The notes under the pieces: model-generated
The model's input: only the letters and a program-made list of their open reading frames with translations
Told to the model about the DNA's origin: nothing
The model's database searches: none
Position numbers and translations under genes: made by a program
DNA from: Deltaproteobacteria bacterium
GTDB lineage: Bacteria > Myxococcota > Myxococcia > Myxococcales > 40CM-4-68-19
DNA: 49,635 nucleotides
Assembly: GCA_025358085.1 (NCBI GenBank)
Contig: JANYKT010000155.1
Span: forward strand, 1 to 49,635
Reading direction: 5' to 3'
Shown here: positions 11,268 through 44,488 of the stretch, one piece after another
Position numbering within the stretch: position 1 is the first letter of the stretch
How the letters are laid out: every line of letters starts with the position of its first letter

Positions 11268-12491
11268 ATGAAGCCCGAGGCAAAGGTCGTTCACTGGGAG
11301 CACCCATCAGGTGATGGCCGCAAGGTCAGGGTTGGCGCCTGCAAGCAGGACCCGCAGAATCACGGTCATCCGCACTACGAGGCGACGCAGTGGCAACCTG
11401 ACGAGCTGCCGGCCTTCGTCGATCTGCGCAGCCACCTGACGCCGGTGGAGGACCAGGGAGAGGTCGGCAGCTGCACCGCCAACGCGCTGGCCGGTGCGCT
11501 CGAGTATCTCGAGAAGCGCACCAACGGCGCCGAGGGTCGCGTGTCGCGGCTCTTCATCTACTGGAATGAGCGCGACGTCGAGGGTACCGCCGCCCAGGAT
11601 CACGGCGCCGCGCTGTCCGACGGAATCAAGGTGCTCAAGACCGACGGCGCCTGCTCCGAAGACACCTGGCAGTACGACAAGACGATGGTCTTCGAGCAGC
11701 CCGCCGAGGCGGCGTACGACGAGGCCAAGGGCCACACCATCGACGAGGCGCACAAGGTCAAGGTCGAACTGCACGACATGCGGCACTGCCTGGCCGAAGG
11801 ATATCCGTTCGTCTTCGGGCTGCAGGTCTACGACGCGTTCCAGCAGGACGGGGAGAAGAACAACGGCGTCATTCGCACGCCGGACCCGGCAACGCACGAG
11901 CACGCCGGCGGCCACGCGATGCTCTGCGTCGGCTACTCCGACAAGGACCAGGTGTTTTTGGTGCGCAACTCGTGGGGCCCGGGCTGGGGCGTGCGCGGCT
12001 ATTGCTACATCCCCTACGGCTATCTCGCGAACAGCGACTTCTGCCACGACGCCTGGACCATCCGGGTGGCGCACAACCTGGACTTTACCCAGGGCGCGGG
12101 CGGCGGCGAGCTGCCGCACGGCAACAAGGATTCGTTCCTGGACGACAACGACGATCATACCGTTGCGCTGGCGGATGATACCGACGACACGGACTCGACC
12201 GATACCGACCCGACCGGTGCCGACGATACGAACGACGATTCAGACGACACTGATTCCGGCGACGACGACAACTCCGACGATGCCAACACCGACTCTGACG
12301 ATACCAATGCAGACTCGGATGATACCGATTCCAATGATTCCAATGACGACTCCGACGACTCGAACTCGTCGAGCGACGACGGCAAGAGTGAGGAAGAGCT
12401 CCAGGCCGAGATCCAGAAGCTGGACGCGGAGCTTGCCGAATTGAAGTCCGAGCTGGGCGGCCGCAAGCCAGCGCCGAAGAAGCACCGCTAG
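11268..12491 (+). CDS. Papain-like (C1A) cysteine protease with Asp-rich tail and no signal peptide
   Basis: A 407-aa protein. Residues 45-270 form a peptidase C1A domain: oxyanion Gln63 and catalytic Cys69 in DQGEVGSCTANA, His216 in GGHAMLCVGY, Asn234 in VRNSWGPGWG. The usual 'CWAF' after the Gln is 'CTAN', as in many bacterial C1A relatives. There is no signal peptide and no inhibitory propeptide, only about 45 residues before the domain. Residues about 290-378 are a low-complexity Asp/Ser/Thr/Asn tail of DD-T/S-D units. A short heptad coiled coil (about 378-400) and a basic end (KKHR) follow. Substrate and activation are unknown. The tail could bind divalent cations or mediate assembly. 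Confidence 0.88.
   Translation: MKPEAKVVHWEHPSGDGRKVRVGACKQDPQNHGHPHYEATQWQPDELPAFVDLRSHLTPVEDQGEVGSCTANALAGALEYLEKRTNGAEGRVSRLFIYWNERDVEGTAAQDHGAALSDGIKVLKTDGACSEDTWQYDKTMVFEQPAEAAYDEAKGHTIDEAHKVKVELHDMRHCLAEGYPFVFGLQVYDAFQQDGEKNNGVIRTPDPATHEHAGGHAMLCVGYSDKDQVFLVRNSWGPGWGVRGYCYIPYGYLANSDFCHDAWTIRVAHNLDFTQGAGGGELPHGNKDSFLDDNDDHTVALADDTDDTDSTDTDPTGADDTNDDSDDTDSGDDDNSDDANTDSDDTNADSDDTDSNDSNDDSDDSNSSSDDGKSEEELQAEIQKLDAELAELKSELGGRKPAPKKHR
12150..12385 (+). repeat. Degenerate Asp-rich tandem repeat tract in the protease gene
   Basis: Short units built from GAC/GAT with ACC, TCC, AAT codons recur about every 6-9 nt and encode D-D-T-D-S-type repeats. Unlike the rest of the gene, the tract mixes GAT and GAC freely, so it has lower GC at the third position. 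That fits expansion by slippage. Confidence 0.7.
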
Positions 12492-18005: not shown

Positions 18006-19424
18006 ATGATGACTCCCGCGGCTGCACCGACGACCGATGCTGCGATCCAGAAAGCCCTCGCGCATTACGAGGCGCATTACCCCGAGTATCTCGAAGAGCT
18101 GAAGAAGCTGGTGCGCATTCCCAGCGTCTCGTTCGACGGGTTCGACAAGGCGCAGGTCCGCAAGTCCGGCGAGGCCACCTGCGACCTGCTCCGGCGCAAG
18201 GGCCTCGAAAACGTGCAGCTGCTGGAGATGCCGGGCGCGCACCCCTATGCCTACGGCGAGTGGAAGCACGCGGCCGGCCGGCCCACGCTGCTGCTCTACG
18301 CGCACCACGACGTCCAGCCGGCGGGTGAAGAGGAGAAGTGGCACACCAAGCCGTTCGAGCCCACCGAGAAGGACGGCCGGCTCTTTGGCCGCGGCGCCGC
18401 CGACGACAAGGCGGGCATCCTGGTCCACGTTGCCGCCATCGACTCCTGGCTCAAGAGCGCGGGCTCGCTGCCGGTGAACGTCAAGATCGTCATTGAAGGT
18501 GAGGAGGAGGCAGGCTCGGGTTCGCTGCCGGCCTTCCTCAAGCAGCACAAGGAAATGCTCCAGGCCGACTGCATCGTGCTGACCGACACCGGCAACTTCG
18601 AGACCGGGCTGCCTTCCATCACCACCGCGTTGCGCGGCATCACCTGCGTCAACGTCGAGGTGAAAGCGCTCAAGCAGCCGGTGCACAGCGGCATGTGGGG
18701 CGGACCGGTGCCGGACCCGACCATGGCGCTCTGCAAGATCCTGGCGCGGCTGGTGAACGACGACGGCACCATCGCGATCCCCGGCATCGAGGATAAAGTC
18801 AAGCCGCTGACTCCGGCCGAGAAGAAGTCGATCGCGAGCCTGCCCACCAGCGACGAGCTGTTCCGCAAGCAGGCCGGGATGCTCGAGGGCGTCACGCTCC
18901 TCGGCAACCGGCCGCCGTGGGAGACCAACTGGCGGCACCCGTCGCTCGCGGTCAACGCCTTCGTCGCCTCGAGCCGCAAGGACGCGCGCAACATCATCTG
19001 CGAGAGCGCCTGGGCACGGCTCGGCATCCGCGTGGTGCCGGACCTCGACCCCAAGGAGGTCACGCGGCTCTTGACCGAGGCGCTCAAGAAGGACCCGCCC
19101 TTCGGGTGCCAGGTAGAGGTTCATTTCGAAGGCGACGGCGGCTGGTGGTACACGGACACCGACGCGCCCGCCTTCAAGGCTGCATTCAAGGCGCTGCGCG
19201 AAGGCTACGGCGCGGAGCCGGTGACCATCGGCTGCGGCGGTTCAATCCCGTTCGTCGACCCGTTCTCGAAGGAACTGGGCGGCGTTCCCGCGCTGCTCAT
19301 CGGCGTCGAGGACCCGTACTCCAACGCGCACTCGGAGAACGAGAGCCTGCACCTGGGCGACTTCCAGAAGGCGACGAAGAGCGCGATCCGCTTCTACGCC
19401 GAGCTGGTCCGCGTCACCGCCTGA
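18006..19424 (+). CDS. M20-family metallopeptidase (dipeptidase type)
   Basis: A 472-aa peptidase of the M20 (ArgE/DapE/CPG2) family. Zinc ligands are in 'LLLYAHHDVQPAG' and 'GRGAADDKAG', with the catalytic and bridging acids in 'VIEGEEEAGSGSL'. The dimerisation ('lid') domain follows with 'QPVHSGMWGG', and a late His ligand is in 'PYSNAHSENES'. The overall pattern is that of cytosolic non-specific dipeptidase/PepV-like M20 members; there is no signal peptide. Two ATGs occur in tandem at 18006 and 18009. The preceding hydrolase gene ends 87 nt upstream, so it may be a separate unit. Confidence 0.92.
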   Translation: MMTPAAAPTTDAAIQKALAHYEAHYPEYLEELKKLVRIPSVSFDGFDKAQVRKSGEATCDLLRRKGLENVQLLEMPGAHPYAYGEWKHAAGRPTLLLYAHHDVQPAGEEEKWHTKPFEPTEKDGRLFGRGAADDKAGILVHVAAIDSWLKSAGSLPVNVKIVIEGEEEAGSGSLPAFLKQHKEMLQADCIVLTDTGNFETGLPSITTALRGITCVNVEVKALKQPVHSGMWGGPVPDPTMALCKILARLVNDDGTIAIPGIEDKVKPLTPAEKKSIASLPTSDELFRKQAGMLEGVTLLGNRPPWETNWRHPSLAVNAFVASSRKDARNIICESAWARLGIRVVPDLDPKEVTRLLTEALKKDPPFGCQVEVHFEGDGGWWYTDTDAPAFKAAFKALREGYGAEPVTIGCGGSIPFVDPFSKELGGVPALLIGVEDPYSNAHSENESLHLGDFQKATKSAIRFYAELVRVTA

Positions 19425-19429
19425 AGTCA

Positions 19430-19482
19430 CAATGCCACTCAGTCAAGGAGGCCTCTCCTCTCGGCAACGAACGCCGCAGGAG
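19430..19482. repeat. Isolated outer arm of the dispersed palindromic repeat family
   Basis: This segment begins CAATGCCACTCAGT, passes through AAGGAGGCCTCTC and ends GCAACGAACGCCGCAGGAG. It matches the reverse complement of 42896-42953 almost base for base apart from a short deletion near AAGGAGG. Beyond 19482 the similarity stops, so this is a truncated copy lying 5 nt after the M20 peptidase stop. 19483-19739 shows nothing further beyond a 5-bp hairpin at 19582-19595. Confidence 0.75.
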
Positions 19483-19739
19483 AAGCTCTTGCGCGACCCG
19501 TCCGCAAGCGCGCATCCGTTCTTTGCCAGGCGACAAAGAATTGGCCCTCTCTCCTTCTTCAGGCTGCGCCGAACGGGTTAGCCCTCGTTCGAGGGAGTTG
19601 GCAACGTGGCCCATCGCCATATCTCGCGCTGGGACGTCATTTGAGATCCTCCCTTTTCCCCGCGATAGGCCAGCCCGCGCGATGGAGACGAAGATCTCCC
19701 GCGCGCTTGCGGGCTAGAACGGGCGCGATCTTCAGCGCG

Positions 19740-19883
19740 TGCAAGCCGCCGGGAGACCGTGGGGGGCGGCGAACGAGTTCGCGACACCCCTTGCAAACAA
19801 CGCCATCAGGGCAACACCGGTCAGGGGTGACGCGCATGTCTGAGGGCGACGACCCCCACGGTCTCCCGGCGGCGTTCCTTGCA
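19740..19883. repeat. Dispersed palindromic element, copy A
   Basis: Outer arms at 19745-19771 and 19847-19873 pair over 25 of 27 positions. The arms are flanked by TGCAAG/CTTGCA. Inside, CGCGACACCCCT and AGGGGTGACGCGC can form a second stem around a loop of about 30 nt. The asymmetric internal blocks CGAACGAGTT and ATGTCTGAGGGCGACG are shared with copies B and C. It lies between convergent genes in a 482-bp gene-free stretch. Confidence 0.85.
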
Positions 19884-19906
19884 GAGAGAACGGCTGATCG
19901 TCAGGG

Positions 19907-20449
19907 TCAGCGGTAAGGGACGACCAGCTCACCCTTGCGGCCTTCCTCGCGCAGCTTGGTGCCTGCCTTCTCGAGGCGCCCCGCCCCCTGCCCGACGTAA
20001 TAGAAGCTGCCCTTCTTCGGCGAACTCTTGCGGTAGCGCGCCTTCATCAAGTCCTGCAGCTCGCGGACGGTCGCGTGGAACTTGGGCGGCTTCTCGCCCA
20101 TGCGCGAGTTGTCGCCGGCCGGCTCATTCTCGGCCCAGAAGTAGCCCGAGCGCAGGTCGCCGTCTTCGTCCAGCGCCGAGCGGAAAAAGTAGACCACTGG
20201 CGAAGCCTTCTCGTCGATCTTCCACTGGCCTTTGCCGGGACCGCGCTTGATTGAATAGCCTTCGACGTCGCCCGCCGCGAAGTAATAGCCGGTGTCGGAA
20301 AGCGTCGCCGCGAGCTCGGCGCTGACCAGCGGCGCGTCGAAATCCGGATCGCTCAGCTCGGGCCAGAGCTGGACCTGCAGCCGCTCGAGGCGCTTGAAGA
20401 GTTCGCGCTCGTCCTCGGGCGCCATGAAAAAGCCGATTTGGAGCGCCAC
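19907..20449 (-). CDS. Conserved-looking hypothetical protein, 180 aa
   Basis: The GTG start shares one base with the stop of the upstream TerB-like gene (TAGTG), so the two are coupled. The protein is soluble, mixed alpha/beta, with 'ALQIGFFMAPEDERELFKRLE', a central beta-rich region 'GYYFAAGDVEGYSIKRG' and 'VVYFFRSALDEDGDLRSGYFW', and a Lys/Gly-rich basic C-terminus. I do not recognise a family. A function linked to its TerB-like partner is possible only by association. Confidence 0.75.
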   Translation of the reverse strand: MALQIGFFMAPEDERELFKRLERLQVQLWPELSDPDFDAPLVSAELAATLSDTGYYFAAGDVEGYSIKRGPGKGQWKIDEKASPVVYFFRSALDEDGDLRSGYFWAENEPAGDNSRMGEKPPKFHATVRELQDLMKARYRKSSPKKGSFYYVGQGAGRLEKAGTKLREEGRKGELVVPYR

Positions 20450-35395: not shown

Positions 35396-37237
35396 GTGGC
35401 TGAGCTCGTCATCGGCATCGATCTGGGCACCACCAACTCCGTCGTGGCTTCGGTCCACGGCGGCAGCCCGACCGTCATTCCCAATCGCAGCGGTTATCGG
35501 CTCACACCCTCCGTGGTGGCTCTGGCCCGCAACGGGAAGCGACTGGTCGGGGCACTCGCGCGTCGGCAGGCGGTGACCAATGCCGAGCGCACGGTGGTGG
35601 CAGTGAAGCGCCTGATGGGTCGCCGCTTCTCCTCGAAGAGTCTGCAGGAATCGCTCTCGCGGCTGCCCTACACCGTGGTGGCGGGCGAACGCGACGACCC
35701 GCGCATCGTACTCGGAGAGCAGCACCTGTCCCCGGCCGAAGTGAGCGCCATGATCCTCACCGAGCTGCGCCTCGATGCCGAGGCGTTCTTCGGCGAGCCC
35801 GTCACCAAGGCAGTCATCACCGTCCCCGCCTACTTCAACGACGGCCAGCGCGCGGCTACCAAGGACGCGGGCCGCATCGCCGGCCTCGACGTCATTCGCA
35901 TCATCAACGAGCCCACCGCGGCGTCACTCGCCTACGGGTTCGGCAAAACCGCCCTGGAGAAGCAGATCGCCATCTTCGATCTGGGCGGCGGCACTTTCGA
36001 CTTCACCGTGCTGCACATGTTCAAGGGCGTCTTCGAAGTCGAAGCCACCGGCGGCGACACGCTGCTCGGCGGCGAGGACTTCGACGCGCGCATCATCGAT
36101 TGGCTGGCCGAGCCATTCAAGGAGAAGCACGGCATCGACCTGCGCACCGACAAGATGGCGCTGCAGCGCCTGCGCGATGCGTCGGAGAAAGCCAAGTGCG
36201 AGCTGTCGTTGCTGAAGCAGGTCGAGATCAACCTGCCCTTCATCAGCGCCACTCCCAAGAGCGGCGCGCTGCATCTCCAGTCTACGCTCACGCGCGACCA
36301 GCTCGAGAAGCTCACCGGCGACCTGATTGAGCGCTGCCTGGGCGTCTGCGCTCAGGTCATGGCGGACGCCAAGGTGCAGGCACCGCAGCTGGGCGACATC
36401 CTGCTGGTGGGCGGCCAGACGCGCATGCCGAAGATCCAGGATGCCGTCAAGACCCTCTTCGCGCGCGAACCTTCCAAGGGCGTGAACCCGGACGAAGCCG
36501 TGGCGCTGGGTGCCGCCATCCAGGGCTCGATGCTGCTGCACGAGGAGAGCGACATGCTCCTCCTGGACGTCACTCCTCATTCATTGGGCATCACCATCGC
36601 CGGCGGCTTCTTCCAGAAGATCATTTCCAAGAACACCACCGTCCCGACCAGCGCGCACCACGTCTTCACCACCGTCAAGGACGACCAGGTCTCCGCCAAG
36701 ATCACCGTGGTCCAGGGGGAGGACGAGGTTGCCGCCAAGAACGAGCTGCTCGGCGAGTTCATGCTCACCGGGCTGCGCAAGGCGCCGCGCGGCGCGGTGG
36801 ACATCGACGTCATCTTCGACATCAGCGCGGACGGCATCGTCTCGGTCTCTGCCATCGACGTGCAGACCGGAGTGCGGCAGAGCATTACCGTTACCGCCTC
36901 GTCCGGGCTCACCGAGGACGAGATCAAGAGCGCTGCCAAGTCGAACGAGGACTGGATGCTGGGGCAGAAGGAAGACCCCGACTTCCAGGATCGCAAGGCC
37001 AAGGCGGAAGAGCTCTTCCGCGAGTTCGAGGCGCTGTGGCCACGGCTCACCCGCGCCGCGCAGAACGGCCTCGGCCAGGAGCCGCTGCAGCGCGCGCAGG
37101 CTGCGCTGTCGGTAGCGCGGCTGCAGGTTGCGCAAAAGGAAAGCGAGGGGCTCGCGGGCTCCATCGACCGCCTCGAACGCATGCTGGGCGCACTCAAGGG
37201 CGCGGTCGAGCGCGGGCTGGGGCAGGAGGGTCGCTGA
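35396..37237 (+). CDS. Hsp70/DnaK paralogue
   Basis: A 613-aa Hsp70. The ATPase domain is complete: '[11 protein letters not shown]', '[22 protein letters not shown]', '[14 protein letters not shown]', '[13 protein letters not shown]', linked by the hydrophobic '[14 protein letters not shown]'. The substrate-binding domain and a short helical lid follow, but the C-terminal disordered Gly/Asn/Asp tail of housekeeping DnaK is missing. It starts with GTG. It sits between a J-TPR gene and a TPR gene rather than next to grpE/dnaJ, so it is a specialised copy. A DnaK homologue, SglK, is needed for social motility in Myxococcus xanthus; equivalence is inference. Confidence 0.93.
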
Positions 37238-37238
37238 A

Positions 37239-38198
37239 GTGAATTCTCCCTCTTCCGGCAAGTTCTCGCAGCTTCTGCTCGAGGGTCTTGACCACTATCG
37301 CAAGGGCAAGATGATGGAGGCCGTGCGGGCCTGGGAGGAGGCCTACCGGCTCGAGCCCACCAACCTGCGCGCGCGCGAGTTCCTGCGTTCGGCGCTCGAG
37401 CGGATCCACGCGCACCTCGGTCTGGCCGCGGCCGCGCCGCCCGGTGCCGCCGCCGCACCTGCCCCTCACCCCTGGCTTCCGCAGCAGCCGGCGCGAGCGC
37501 AGCCGCGACCTCCCACCGAGCCCCTGCCCGCGGGCAGCACCGCAGCCTTCGCGTCTCCCCTCATCCAGCAGGCCGCTCCGGCTCCGGCTCCCGCTCCGGC
37601 TCCCGCTCCCGTCGCGAAGGCCGGGCCGCTCAAGTTCGCGACCGGGCCCTGGGACGACGGTCCCTCAATTGCGCTGCCGGCTGACCCGGAGCAGCAGACG
37701 CAAAGCGCTATCGACGAATCCACCGGCGCTTGGTCCATCCACAAGGACCCGCCGCCTGTCGAAGCCCCCGCCAGCGACGAGGTGGAGGTCTGGCTGAATG
37801 GCGCGCGCGAGTTGATGGGGCTCAACGACTTCAGCGGCGCGCTGGAGTTGACCAACAAGATTCTCGAGCGCAAGCAAGGCGATAAAGAAGCCCTGCAGAT
37901 TCACGAGCTGTGCGAGCACAACTTGACGCAAATGTTCGAAAGCAAGATCGGCTCGATGGAGGCGCGGCCCAGTGTCTCCATGCCGCCGGACGAGATCATC
38001 TGGCTCAACCTCGACCCACGCGCGGGGTTCGTGCTGGCGCAGATCGACGGAGAGGTCTCGTTCGAGGACCTCTACGCCATCTGCGGCCTCCGGCAACTCG
38101 ACACGGCGCGGATCCTTTCGCAGCTGCTCGAGGAGGGCGTAGTTGCTGTCCGCGGCGAGCTACAGGCCATCGGAAAGCGGGCGCTGCACCGGCGCTAG
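37239..38198 (+). CDS. TPR-containing protein with Ala/Pro linker, last gene of the chaperone operon
   Basis: A 319-aa protein. The GTG start overlaps nothing but follows the Hsp70 stop by one base. It has an N-terminal TPR unit ('LLLEGLDHYRKGKMMEAVRAWEEAYRLEP'), a disordered Ala/Pro linker including a run of A-P repeats, and a second TPR-like pair ('WLNGARELMGLNDFSGALELTNKILE'). A C-terminal winged-helix-like segment follows ('VLAQIDGEVSFEDLYAICGL', 'ARILSQLLEEGVV'). It resembles myxobacterial adaptor-type proteins, but I cannot name a family. It probably links the chaperone pair to a client. Confidence 0.75.
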   Translation: MNSPSSGKFSQLLLEGLDHYRKGKMMEAVRAWEEAYRLEPTNLRAREFLRSALERIHAHLGLAAAAPPGAAAAPAPHPWLPQQPARAQPRPPTEPLPAGSTAAFASPLIQQAAPAPAPAPAPAPVAKAGPLKFATGPWDDGPSIALPADPEQQTQSAIDESTGAWSIHKDPPPVEAPASDEVEVWLNGARELMGLNDFSGALELTNKILERKQGDKEALQIHELCEHNLTQMFESKIGSMEARPSVSMPPDEIIWLNLDPRAGFVLAQIDGEVSFEDLYAICGLRQLDTARILSQLLEEGVVAVRGELQAIGKRALHRR

Positions 38199-38564: not shown

Positions 38565-38692
38565 CAGCAGTGGGGGTCGGCGAACGAGTTGCGGAGCCTC
38601 CCAGCAACAACGTCGATGCGCGCCCCACGTCAGGGGGTGAGCACCTGTCTGAGGGCGACGACCCCCACGCCCCCGGGACGGCGATCGTTGCA
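38565..38692. repeat. Dispersed palindromic element, copy B
   Basis: GTGGGGGTCG (38570-38579) pairs with CGACCCCCAC (38659-38668). The internal blocks CGAACGAGTT and CTGTCTGAGGGCGACGA are conserved with copies A and C. The right end GGCGATCGTTGC resembles the outer arm GGCGTTCGTTGC of the others, while the left outer arm is eroded. It lies between the convergent TPR and hslU genes, 12 bp from the hslU stop. Confidence 0.8.
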
Positions 38693-38703
38693 GTTTACGA
38701 AGA

Positions 38704-40077
38704 TCACAGGATGTAGCGCGAGAGATCTTCGTCCTTGAGGATCGGTTCGAGCCGGGAGCGGACATACGCCGCATCGATGTTGATCCTCTTCTCGCCCAGA
38801 GCTTCCGAAGCATGAAAGGAGAGATCCTCAAGCACCTTCTCGAGCACGGTGTGCAGCCGTCGCGCGCCGATGTTCTGCGTCCGCGTGTTCATCTCCTGCG
38901 CCACTCGCGCCAGCTCCTGCACGCCGCTCTCGTCGAACGACAACGCCAGTCCCTCGGTCTCCAGCAGCGCCACGTACTGCCGGGTGAGCGCGTTGCGCGG
39001 CTCGGTCAGGACGCGAACCAGATCCGTCTGGGTCAGCGAGTCGAGCTCGACCCGGATTGGAAAGCGGCCCTGCAGCTCGGGCAGCAGGTCGCTCACCTTT
39101 GCGACGTGAAATGCGCCCGCCGCGATGAAGAGCACATGATCCGTCTTGACCGGGCCGTACTTGGTGTTGACGGTCGAGCCCTCCACCAGCGGCAGCAGGT
39201 CGCGCTGGACGCCGCCGCGCGAGACGTCGGGCCCGTGGGCGCCGGCGCCGCCCCCCGGTCCCGCCACCTTGTCGATCTCGTCGATGAAGACGATCCCGCT
39301 CGTCTGCACGCGGTCAAGCGCCTCGCGCGCCACCGCGTCGTTGTCGACCAGCTTGGCGGCCTCTTCGGCGACGAGAAGCGCCCGCGCCTCCGGGACCTTG
39401 AGCTTGCGCTTGCGCGTTTTTTTACCGAACGGAAGGTTGCCGAGCATCTCCTGCAGGTTGATGCCGACCTCCTCCAGGCCCTGGCTGCCGAACATCTGCA
39501 TGGTCGGCCGCGCGCTGCCCTCGGCGACCTCCATCTCGATGGTGCGGTCGTCCATGCCGCCCGCGCGCAGCATGCCTCGCAGCTTCTCGCGGGTGGTGTC
39601 GCGGCGGTCGCCGGCCGCGAAGCCAGCGGTGTTCCCGGTCCCCGGCGCCGAGCCCGACGGCAGCAATAGATCCAGCAACCGCTCCTCGGCCAACTCCTCC
39701 GCGCGCGGCTGCACCAGCTTCTGCTGCTCCTCGCGCACCAGCTGCACGCCGTTCTCCATCAGGTCCCGAATCATCGAGTCGACGTCGCGCCCGACGTAGC
39801 CGACCTCGGTGAACTTGGAGGCCTCGACCTTGACGAACGGAGCCTGTGCCAGCCTGGCGAGCCGCCGCGCGATCTCCGTCTTGCCCACGCCGGTAGGTCC
39901 GACCAGGATGATGTTCTTCGGCATCACCTCGTCGCGAAGGTCGGCCGCGACGTGGAAGCGGCGCCAGCGGTTGCGCAGCGCGATGGCGACCGCGCGCTTC
40001 GCTGCCCCCTGACCGACGATGTACTTGTCCAGCTCAGCGACGATCTCGCGCGGTGTAAAGCTCGTGGGCGATCCCAT
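38704..40077 (-). CDS. hslU: HslU, ATPase subunit of the HslUV protease
   Basis: A 457-aa AAA+ unfoldase. '[15 protein letters not shown]' at the N-terminus, Walker [16 protein letters not shown], then '[18 protein letters not shown]', an inserted I domain, Walker B '[10 protein letters not shown]' and the C-terminal '[20 protein letters not shown]' sensor-2 helix. It ends in 'RYIL', where the C-terminus docks onto HslV. The ATG directly abuts the hslV stop. Confidence 0.97.
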
Positions 40078-41757: not shown

Positions 41758-42636
41758 CTAGCGCTTGAGGACGCGCGCCCGCGGGTGCGCGTCTTCGTAG
41801 ACCTGCTGCAGCCGCTCGGACGAGACGTGCGTGTACCGCTGCGTGGTCGAGAGCGAGGCATGGCCCAGCAATTCCTGGATGCCGCGCAAGTCGGCGCCCA
41901 TATCGAGCAGATGCGTCGCGAACGAGTGGCGCAGCGCGTGCGGGTGCACATGCCTGCGCGCGCCCGCCACCAGCGCATAGCGGGCGAGGTGCCGGGCGAC
42001 GCTGCGCGCCGTCAGCCGTCCTCCGCGGCGATTGAGGAGCAAGGCGGTGCCGGCTCCCAACTCGCCCCGTCGCGCGAGATAGAGGCGCAACGCCTCGCGC
42101 GCCTTCGACACCAGCGGCACGATGCGCTCCTTGTTTCCCTTGCCGCGCACTTTCACCGCGCTGTCGCCGTCGATGAAGTCAGTCAAGTCCAGCCCGACGA
42201 GCTCAGAGACGCGCAAGCCGCCGCCGTACAACAATTCGAGCGCGCAGCGGTCGCGCAGGCCCGCCGCGGTGCGCGCGCTTGGCGCGAGCAAGAGCGCGAA
42301 GCAGTCGTCCACCCCGACGACACTGGGCAGCGAGGTGCGCTTCTTCGGCGACAGCAGCCGGCGGGCGGGGCTGTCGGCGAGGTGTCCGCCGCGAACGCGG
42401 TGCTCGTAGAACGCTTTCAGGCTGGCGAGCTTTCGGGCCAGCGTCGCAGGACCATTGCTGCCGAAGCGCGTGGCGAGGAAAGAGCGCAGGTCTTCGCGCG
42501 TCGCCGAGTCGAGGGAGCGCTCGCCGAGGAAGTCCTGCAGCTGGCGCAGGTCGGAGAGATACGCGCGCTGCGTGTGCGCCGACGCGTGCTGGATCTGCTC
42601 GAGGTGATTGTGAAAGTCCTGCAGCGCGTCCGGCAT
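41758..42636 (-). CDS. xerC: Tyrosine recombinase XerC-type
   Basis: A 292-aa site-specific recombinase. The N-terminal SAM-like core-binding domain runs to about residue 95. The catalytic residues are all visible: R142 (GGLRVSEL), K in 'VRGKGNKER', H233/R236 (HPHALRHSFATH), H259 (LGHAS) and Y268 (TTQRYTH). Synteny with trmFO, topA and hslVU is that of the housekeeping XerC that resolves chromosome dimers at dif, rather than a phage integrase. No dif-like site was recognised in the window. Confidence 0.94.
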   Translation of the reverse strand: MPDALQDFHNHLEQIQHASAHTQRAYLSDLRQLQDFLGERSLDSATREDLRSFLATRFGSNGPATLARKLASLKAFYEHRVRGGHLADSPARRLLSPKKRTSLPSVVGVDDCFALLLAPSARTAAGLRDRCALELLYGGGLRVSELVGLDLTDFIDGDSAVKVRGKGNKERIVPLVSKAREALRLYLARRGELGAGTALLLNRRGGRLTARSVARHLARYALVAGARRHVHPHALRHSFATHLLDMGADLRGIQELLGHASLSTTQRYTHVSSERLQQVYEDAHPRARVLKR

Positions 42637-42766
42637 GACGGCATCGTCGGGCAGTCCGGGCGCGGGTCAAGTTTTGGGGCCGGTCTTTGCCGAGGCTGGC
42701 CGGTACTCAAGCCCGGCCAAGCCCGGCTCAACCCAAAGCCGGTCAGTTAGCAGCGCCCTTTCTCTC

Positions 42767-42915
42767 TGCAGGGGACGCCGCCTTAGAGACCGTGGGGGTC
42801 GACGAACGAGTTCGCGACACCCCTACAACCCAACTCCATCCCGCAACACCGGTCAGGGGCGGCGCGAATGTCTGAGGGCGGCGACCCCCACGCTCCTCCT
42901 GCGGCGTTCGTTGCC
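42767..42915. repeat. Dispersed palindromic element, copy C
   Basis: GTGGGGGTCG (42792-42801) pairs perfectly with CGACCCCCAC (42882-42891), and outer arms GACGCCGC/GCGGCGTT extend the stem. The internal blocks CGAACGAGTTCGCGACACCCCT and CAACACCGGTCAGGGG match copy A closely. Beyond the right arm, 42896-42953 matches the isolated arm at 19430-19482 in inverted orientation. Farther out, CCCGGCTCAACCC (near 42722) and GGTCGAGCCTGG (near 42962) are a further imperfect inverted pair. The element therefore fills most of the 340-bp gap 42637-42976. Confidence 0.85.
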
Positions 42916-42976
42916 CAGATGAGAGGCCTCCTTAAATTAACTGAGTGGCATTGCGGCTAAACTTGGTCGAGCCTGG

Positions 42977-44488
42977 CTAGGGAACGTCGGTCACGTACAC
43001 CGAGCCTTTGCCGGCGGTGAGCGTGGCGTAGACGACGCGCAGGCCTTTGGTGTCGGCGAAGCACGAGCTCGCGTCGGCCTCCAGCGCGAACGGCTTGAGA
43101 TGCTGCGGCGGCGCGCCCATGGCGTCGATGACCGCGAGGTCCACCGCGCGGGTCGCGCCCCGGTGCGGCTGCTCGATCAGGATGCGCGTGCCGTCCTGCG
43201 AGAGGTCGAACCCGGCGACGTTCGGCGAGAGAAAGGTCGGCTTGTCCACGCCTGAGACCGGCGCGCGCAACAGCGAACAGCTGCGCGCGGTCCCGGCGCA
43301 GCGCGCCTTCCAGAACAGCGTCGCGCCGTCGTTCGAGAGCTGGTAGCCGTAGACTCCCTCGTCGAGCTTGCGCGGCAGAACCCCCGGACCTTCATCGACG
43401 GACGCGGTCCAGAGCTCGATCTTGTAGTCGCCTTTTTGCGGCGCCTGCACCAGGAAGAGCACGCGCTTTCCCTGCGCGGTGAAGCTCTGCACCTTGCGCG
43501 CCAGCTCGCGCGGCGCCCCGCCCCCGGCCGGCGAGACGGTGAGCGCGCCGGCCCGGGCGCGAAGGTCGTAGTTGGCGAGGAAGAGCAGATCGCCGGACGA
43601 GGTCCAGCGCCAGTCGCTGACCCGCTGGCCGATGACCCGCGGCGTGCCTCCCGCGCGCGACATTCGCGAGAGATCTCCCGTGGCCTCGCCCGGTTTCTTC
43701 GCGGTGGAGAGGAGCGCGAGCTCGCGGCCGTCCGGCGAGAAAGCGAAAGAGGTCGCGCGCGCGAGCTTGACCGGTTCGGCCGCTCCGGGCTCGAGCGTCA
43801 ATAGCTGCCGGTCGCCACCCTGGGGCGCAGGCGGGCCCAGCACGCCCAGCGTCCCGTCCCTGGCGAAGGCGAAATCGGAGGTGGCGGTCGCGACCTCTTT
43901 CTTCGCGCCGCTCCGCGCGTCCACCAAGAAGAGTCGCCCGCCCGCGGCAGCAGCCGCGCGCACGGCCAGGTGCAGTCCGTCGGGCGCCCAGGCCACGCTC
44001 TGAGCGCCGTCGATGGGCACCGCCAGCGTCTCGTGCAGGCCAATCTTGAGGATGCCCACGCGGCCCGGCGCGACAAAGGCCAGCGCGGTCCCCGACGGCG
44101 CCCAGTCGAACGTGCTGGCTTCGGCGGAGATCTTCTGCAGCCCGCCCGCCTGGGTCCAGATCCACAGCTCGCCCTGCCCCGCGCGGAACCGCCACGCGGC
44201 GAGGAATGCCAGCACGTCGCCGCCTGGTGAAAAGCCAAATGCGCCCGCGCTGGTGGGGACGCCCACGCCAGCTCTCTGCGCGGCAGGCTTGGTCAGCGTC
44301 GCGACCCAGAGCTCCCCGGCCAGCAGGTCGTCGGGGACGCTCCGGTCGTCAGGGTGGACGGCGTCGAGCAGGAACGCGGTCGCACCGGGCGCGACGGTGA
44401 TCTGATGCGCAATCCCGTTCGCCAGCCGGGTGCCAGGTGTTTGATCGGAGCAAGCCGCGGCGAGGAGGCAGACGAAGAGGATGCGCAT
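42977..44488 (-). CDS. Beta-propeller (TolB/PD40-like) lipoprotein
   Basis: A 503-aa protein with a lipoprotein signal (MRILFVCLLAAACSD; lipobox AAAC with Cys about 13). It has at least six WD40-like/PD40 repeats: 'GFSPGGDVLAFLA', 'DWAPSGTALAFV', 'AWAPDGLHLAVR', 'AFSPDGRELALL', 'QLSNDGATLFW', 'DLSQDGTRILIE'. Such propellers serve as periplasmic protein-interaction platforms. It starts 4 nt after the trmFO stop, so it is co-transcribed with trmFO; the functional link is unclear. Confidence 0.85.
   Translation of the reverse strand: MRILFVCLLAAACSDQTPGTRLANGIAHQITVAPGATAFLLDAVHPDDRSVPDDLLAGELWVATLTKPAAQRAGVGVPTSAGAFGFSPGGDVLAFLAAWRFRAGQGELWIWTQAGGLQKISAEASTFDWAPSGTALAFVAPGRVGILKIGLHETLAVPIDGAQSVAWAPDGLHLAVRAAAAAGGRLFLVDARSGAKKEVATATSDFAFARDGTLGVLGPPAPQGGDRQLLTLEPGAAEPVKLARATSFAFSPDGRELALLSTAKKPGEATGDLSRMSRAGGTPRVIGQRVSDWRWTSSGDLLFLANYDLRARAGALTVSPAGGGAPRELARKVQSFTAQGKRVLFLVQAPQKGDYKIELWTASVDEGPGVLPRKLDEGVYGYQLSNDGATLFWKARCAGTARSCSLLRAPVSGVDKPTFLSPNVAGFDLSQDGTRILIEQPHRGATRAVDLAVIDAMGAPPQHLKPFALEADASSCFADTKGLRVVYATLTAGKGSVYVTDVP

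Follow-up and report, generated by a model that had tools for sequence, protein, structure and literature searches.

We found that three palindromes dispersed along a 49,635-nucleotide stretch of DNA (the window, which is the whole of contig 100 of a 217-contig, 5.42 Mb genome, hereafter G000) are parts of a multi-copy family of miniature inverted-repeat transposable elements (MITEs), and that the hairpin they encode recurs, with different stems and a conserved core, in related genomes. In the reading that we consider probable, the palindromes form hairpin modules within mobile elements that are non-autonomous, carry IS4-type ends in G000 and are moved there in trans by an IS4 transposase, the hairpin arms being kept complementary mainly at the DNA level. 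A genome-wide nucleotide search recovered more than 30 copies in G000, so the family is not restricted to the copies in the window; covariance models give about 31 palindromes, and the count with a joint model, which includes opposite-strand echoes, is 41.

A preliminary description of the window had placed palindromic copies at 19740-19883 (copy A), 38565-38692 (copy B) and 42767-42915 (copy C), and all three were found at these positions, together with the blocks reported to be common to them (GTGGGGGTCG[AG]CGAACGAGTT and GTCTGAGGGCG[AG]CGACCCCCAC, each with 3 occurrences in the window and 0 in 100 dinucleotide shuffles). The pairing of the copy A outer arms over 25 of 27 positions was reproduced (27 bp at 93%), and an intergenic location with two copies between convergent genes is true for copies A (open reading frames, ORFs, 18006-19424 on the plus strand and 19907-20449 on the minus strand) and B (37128-38198, plus; 38704-40077, minus), copy C being located between the tandem minus-strand ORFs 41758-42636 and 42977-44488. 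What had been counted as one additional arm beside the three copies is instead the left half of copy A, which starts at 19430 with a terminal inverted repeat. Similarly, the palindromes are real but the extent of about 120-150 bp assigned to them was too small, since the palindrome belongs, as a single module, to an element of 613-618 bp. The features of the window are as follows.

19430 to 19891 (end approximate), plus strand: copy A, a one-palindrome element of about 460 bp whose right terminus is lost.
19745 to 19873, plus strand: copy A palindrome, the best match of the genome to the multi-genus covariance model R2.
38570 to 38668, plus strand: copy B, an old remnant consisting of the palindrome only, with terminal repeats no longer recognisable.
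38704 to 40077, minus strand: HslU-like AAA+ ATPase ORF, convergent with copy B and outside the element.
41758 to 42636, minus strand: XerC/D-like tyrosine recombinase ORF, adjoining copy C and not considered part of the element.
42724 to 42733, no strand: left target-site duplication of copy C, CGGCTCAACC, identical to the right one at 8 of 10 positions.
42734 to 42953, plus strand: copy C, a complete minimal IS4-type MITE of 220 bp that has a single palindrome and retains the terminal inverted repeat at each end.
42792 to 42891, plus strand: copy C palindrome (hairpin module), in which the stem GTGGGGGTCG/CGACCCCCAC encloses the conserved asymmetric core.
42954 to 42963, no strand: right target-site duplication of copy C, CGGCTAAACT.

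Elsewhere in the window, a papain-type-like peptidase ORF with a long acidic C-terminal tail rich in Asp, Ser and Thr was recognised by eye at 11268-12491.

Sequence conservation among the G000 copies extends past the palindrome edges, and full-length elements on contigs 37, 16 and 136 (618, 615 and 613 bp) each contain two palindromes in inverted orientation, with the outer 190 bp forming inverted repeats of about 75% identity. Shorter elements possess one palindrome (359-501 bp or 212-220 bp) or in some cases none, and the copy on contig 84 is an old remnant without ends. Both ends read CAATGCC[AG]NTCAGTTA, a terminal inverted repeat pattern with 73 matches in G000 versus 9 for a reversed control. 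Target duplications of 10 bp, with CTAG at their centre, flank many of the elements; they are exact in three cases (AATCTAGGCT, CGGCTAGAAC and AGACAAGGCC) and near-exact in others, including copy C. Having terminal inverted repeats and target-site duplications and no internal transposase gene, the elements are MITEs.

In a list of 72 ends that includes spurious ones, 24 have CTAG within 14 bp (versus 0.5% for random 14-mers taken from the window), and 19 lie at a TAG stop codon that closes an ORF of 100 codons or more (versus 1.9%). CTAG is rare in G000 and overlaps TAG stop codons, which would account for insertions at gene ends. The data show a MITE whose CTAG target preference places it at TAG stop codons; the G000 elements thereby arrive, by CTAG-targeted insertion, at gene-end sites like those of the hairpins in the related genome G003. 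An exact 22-mer search of GTDB r220 found no match beyond the species itself.

The window copies are deletion or decay derivatives of the full-length elements. Copy A retains, in order, a terminal inverted repeat of type 1 (starting at 19430, which is 6 bp past the stop codon of an M20 peptidase ORF), the central region and the palindrome, with a loop (CAACGCCATCAGGGCAA) that is also present in relatives. Copy C is a hybrid, its left end being of type 2 and its right end of type 1. Deleting in silico the segment between two CGTGGGGGTCG repeats of full-length elements yields a 215-216 bp product that is 87-90% identical to copy C, from which we read copy C as an internal-deletion derivative whose outer arms are mismatched because of that deletion. 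In single-stranded DNA folding the whole copy A palindrome reaches z = -7.8, and the inner 100 bases of copy C, whose outer arms no longer match, fold weakly (z = -2.2). Hybrids of the copy C kind carry outer arms that do not match, so arm pairing is not needed for persistence, a point against the reading that we favour.

Judged by sequence, the element ends and the duplication of about 10 bp are of the IS4 type. The terminal repeats are only a few bases off those of Escherichia coli IS4; in an annotated genome the latter measures 1426 bp, has TAATGCCGATCAGTTAAG and CTTAACTGACTGGCATTA as its ends and is flanked by a 12-bp duplication. IS4-subgroup transposases from genomes of the same order are associated with CAATGCCGATCAGTTAG-type ends and 10-bp CTAG or TTAG duplications, and target duplications of about 10 bp characterise the IS4 family (PMC2266710). 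The multi-copy state is likewise shared. Like IS-derived MITEs, the G000 element has no transposase of its own, and no meaningful IS4 transposase match was found inside the full-length elements nor, beyond the ends, any clear similarity to the insertion sequence or its transposase. It differs in that a structured palindrome of about 130 bp is present in either half of the 613-618 bp element, and in having CTAG at the centre of its target, which often coincides with a stop codon. In another genome of the same order (G074, loci L079-L087) we observed ten identical IS4 copies, several as tandem pairs 1457 bp apart.

A candidate for the mobilising enzyme comes from the end of contig 107 (C107), where a terminus with 91.7% identity to the MITE end over 24 bp is followed by the last 43 residues of an IS4 transposase, a tail that aligns with IS4 transposases of the same order but by itself gave no family or structure match. 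Mobilisation in trans is therefore plausible on the basis of a 43-residue tail at a contig end. Against it, searches of assembled G000 with the E. coli IS4 transposase and with PF13006 found no complete IS4-subgroup transposase (away from C107, PF13006 gave below-cut-off matches only), a result that a repeated insertion sequence breaking the assembly would account for. Seven PF01609 matches in G000 were considered as partners and rejected, as they include IS5, IS1182 and another IS4 group and none is adjoined by an entry in the genome-wide list of MITE-type ends. The C107 insertion itself (locus L051, 1540-1680) disrupts a sensor histidine kinase-like ORF at ..GGGTCTAGGCC, and the contig breaks within it.

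Covariance models revealed the palindrome in 4 of 11 other genomes sampled from the family. A model built from the G000 copies detected homologues in G011, G007 and G003, for which the joint model gave 7, 15 and 31 matches, respectively (some being opposite-strand echoes), and a model built from G003 gave 12 matches in G006. The hairpin was not found in the other 7 of 11, including G002 and G005 (both at least 97% complete); several of the relatives' genomes are fragmented or incomplete, so that absence there is weak evidence. Outside the family, strict filters left no match at E <= 1e-4 among 147 genomes of the class, and viral, phage and plasmid collections returned no match. The G003-type pattern occurs in GTDB only in MAG Umea1_bin-0479, an uncultured 'delta proteobacterium' that is G003 itself. 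In G003 we found no IS4-type terminal repeats, no Nterm_IS4 transposase and no Y1_Tnp match; the hairpin is thus not confined to the IS4-type MITE and is present without such ends in at least one relative. Paired hairpins with different terminal sequences (GTTCGGACTCGGTGTGACGCC...) were seen in G007 and G011 (loci L110, L112, L113 and L116), two of them directly at CCTAG, and no clear target duplication was found at these four loci. Two G003 loci depart from the standard form: on contig 12 (L137 4910-4966, L104) a partial tandem duplicate of one hairpin's 3' arm lies directly behind the hairpin, and on contig 46 (L245, about 1500-1610) a hairpin shortened to 96 nt has lost part of the apical region and the 3' side of the internal loop, its outer arms still pairing well.

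Across the relatives the asymmetric internal loop is conserved (5' (C/G)AGTTC, 3' GCATGTYYGAG), and an apical ATCAGGGCAA-like stretch is conserved in G000, G007 and G011, while the stems are different sequences that have kept their complementarity. An alignment of 23 copies from 4 genomes shows changes in both partners for 25 of 32 pairs and is 90.3% paired, compared with 40-50% when slid. For 30 G003 copies the figures are 96.2% versus 27-45%, with 155 both-side change cells versus 44 after shuffling. Compensatory changes, the lack of which was among the refuting conditions of the preliminary description, are therefore abundant across genomes. Between G003 copies the first ten stem positions are 42% identical and the inner part 82%. 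Neither of two host origins for the stems was retained: 9-mer matches between stems and flanking sequence were no commoner than in control loci, and no simple hairpins with the same outer arms, as insertion into pre-existing host hairpins would require, exist in 224 kb of G003.

That the window might hold either a MITE or a structured RNA family was the alternative originally posed; MITE and structured hairpin hold together, but RNA is not established, as no RNA-strand signature was seen. In an RNA stem, G-U should outnumber A-C on the strand that is transcribed. The inner twelve stem positions of G003 contain 343 Watson-Crick pairs out of 360 (160 expected after shuffling), and the non-Watson-Crick pairs are 6 G-T versus 5 A-C; a wobble count over the whole arm was set aside because constant mismatches near the loop dominated it. 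That wobble pairs are rare and strand-symmetric favours maintenance at the DNA level, through either a function of folded single-stranded DNA or arm homogenisation by template switching. Selection for a very stable, GC-rich RNA stem could also account for so few wobble pairs. It is possible, if rather doubtful, that the hairpin functions as RNA, either in 3'-UTRs or as a non-coding RNA element, with selection acting on fold and loop and with the MITE as the vehicle of its spread. The conserved unpaired core, the covarying stems and a fixed orientation just behind stop codons in G003 would suit such an RNA, but the scarcity of wobble pairs, with neither strand marked as RNA, argues against it, as do the lack of correlation between stem and core distances among copies and the absence of R2 matches from 8 of 12 family genomes. 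No catalogued relative, which would also have refuted the preliminary description, emerged either: Rfam gave none in the window at gathering score, and in the relatives a relaxed threshold produced sub-threshold matches only, nearly all of them chance microRNA. We found no description of this hairpin family in the literature.

We are equally tentative about a second explanation, in which the arms are complementary only because replication template-switching homogenises long imperfect palindromes and the hairpin is functionless, its core reflecting common ancestry and gene conversion. Strand-symmetric, almost purely Watson-Crick arms are compatible with this, and the zero correlation between core and stem distances suggests that cores are exchanged between copies, as would be expected; template-switch mutation of quasipalindromes is moreover documented in bacteria (PMC7202029). 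Against it, the asymmetric loops have escaped homogenisation throughout, and genera with entirely different stems still have the same core. Because the asymmetric loop is conserved, homogenisation alone is not enough.

The G003 hairpins also show where the module sits when IS4-type ends are lacking. In 24 of 34 hairpins an ORF of 200 codons or more has its stop codon within about 40 bp of the same hairpin end, mostly within 11 bp. Orientation relative to that gene is uniform, and 20 of these stops are TAG and 4 TGA, versus 47 TAG among 129 ORFs (odds ratio 8.7, P = 2e-5). It is conceivable but unlikely that this describes a mobile hairpin family in its own right, with copy-specific, nearly perfectly self-complementary stems, a near-invariant asymmetric core and one orientation behind TAG stops, whose two arms are renewed together (e.g. 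by single-strand foldback copying) and which in G003 moves by neither IS4 nor Y1 transposition. Ordinary intrinsic transcription terminators would likewise be hairpins at gene ends, often between convergent genes, yet we consider them very improbable here, as scans of copies A and C found no T-tract, only 0-3 of 30 G003 copies reach 6 or more T in 15 nt, and a terminator has no need of terminal repeats, target duplications or a conserved asymmetric core.

With respect to known palindromic repeats, the ERIC (IRU) sequences and similar MITE-like repeats of enterobacteria resemble the family by description alone, being imperfect palindromes of about 120-150 bp that are intergenic and probably transcribed; neither IS4-type ends nor copy-specific yet complementary stems are known for ERIC. 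The integron attC core boxes RYYYAAC ... GTTRRRY were not seen at the hairpin ends by eye. REPINs and GTAG REPs have inverted doublets, compensatory stem changes and TAG at their ends (PMC3116915, PMC3733652), and as extragenic palindromes with TAG supplying or adjoining stop codons they share these traits with the present family, which is far larger and has a conserved asymmetric internal loop and, in G000, IS4-type ends. That the palindromes are a giant family of the REP/REPIN kind, with a REP-associated Y1 transposase (RAYT) as the mobilising enzyme, is nonetheless the least credible of the readings and was rejected, for while Y1 transposase genes occur in 11 of 12 family genomes, no Y1_Tnp match exists in G003, the relative richest in hairpins, no Y1_Tnp gene lies within 14 kb of any G000 element on the same contig, the module measures about 130 bp and not 20-40 bp, and the base preceding TAG varies, leaving no fixed GTAG tag. 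Y1/RAYT-like transposase genes are numerous in most family members (15 in G000).

Returning to the favoured reading of hairpin modules carried by non-autonomous elements, we propose that an IS4-family transposase, of which the C-terminal end and terminus at C107 would be a remnant in the assembly, moves the G000 MITEs in trans. The rarity of CTAG and its overlap with TAG would direct insertions to gene ends, where they may do little harm. A putative protein recognising the folded strand might read the asymmetric loop, and the arms would stay complementary mainly at the DNA level, through a hairpin function in single-stranded DNA and/or replication template-switching. At a gene end the hairpin may also serve as a 3' structure limiting read-through.

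These findings extend three odd palindromes to a structured element family that occurs in five genomes, representing three genera of a single Myxococcota-like bacterial family, and for which covariation is very strong and no catalogued relative was found. They also describe a MITE that carries a conserved hairpin module. Because the stems differ between copies within one genome, the hairpin copies are a natural data set with which to separate RNA-level selection from DNA-level arm homogenisation.
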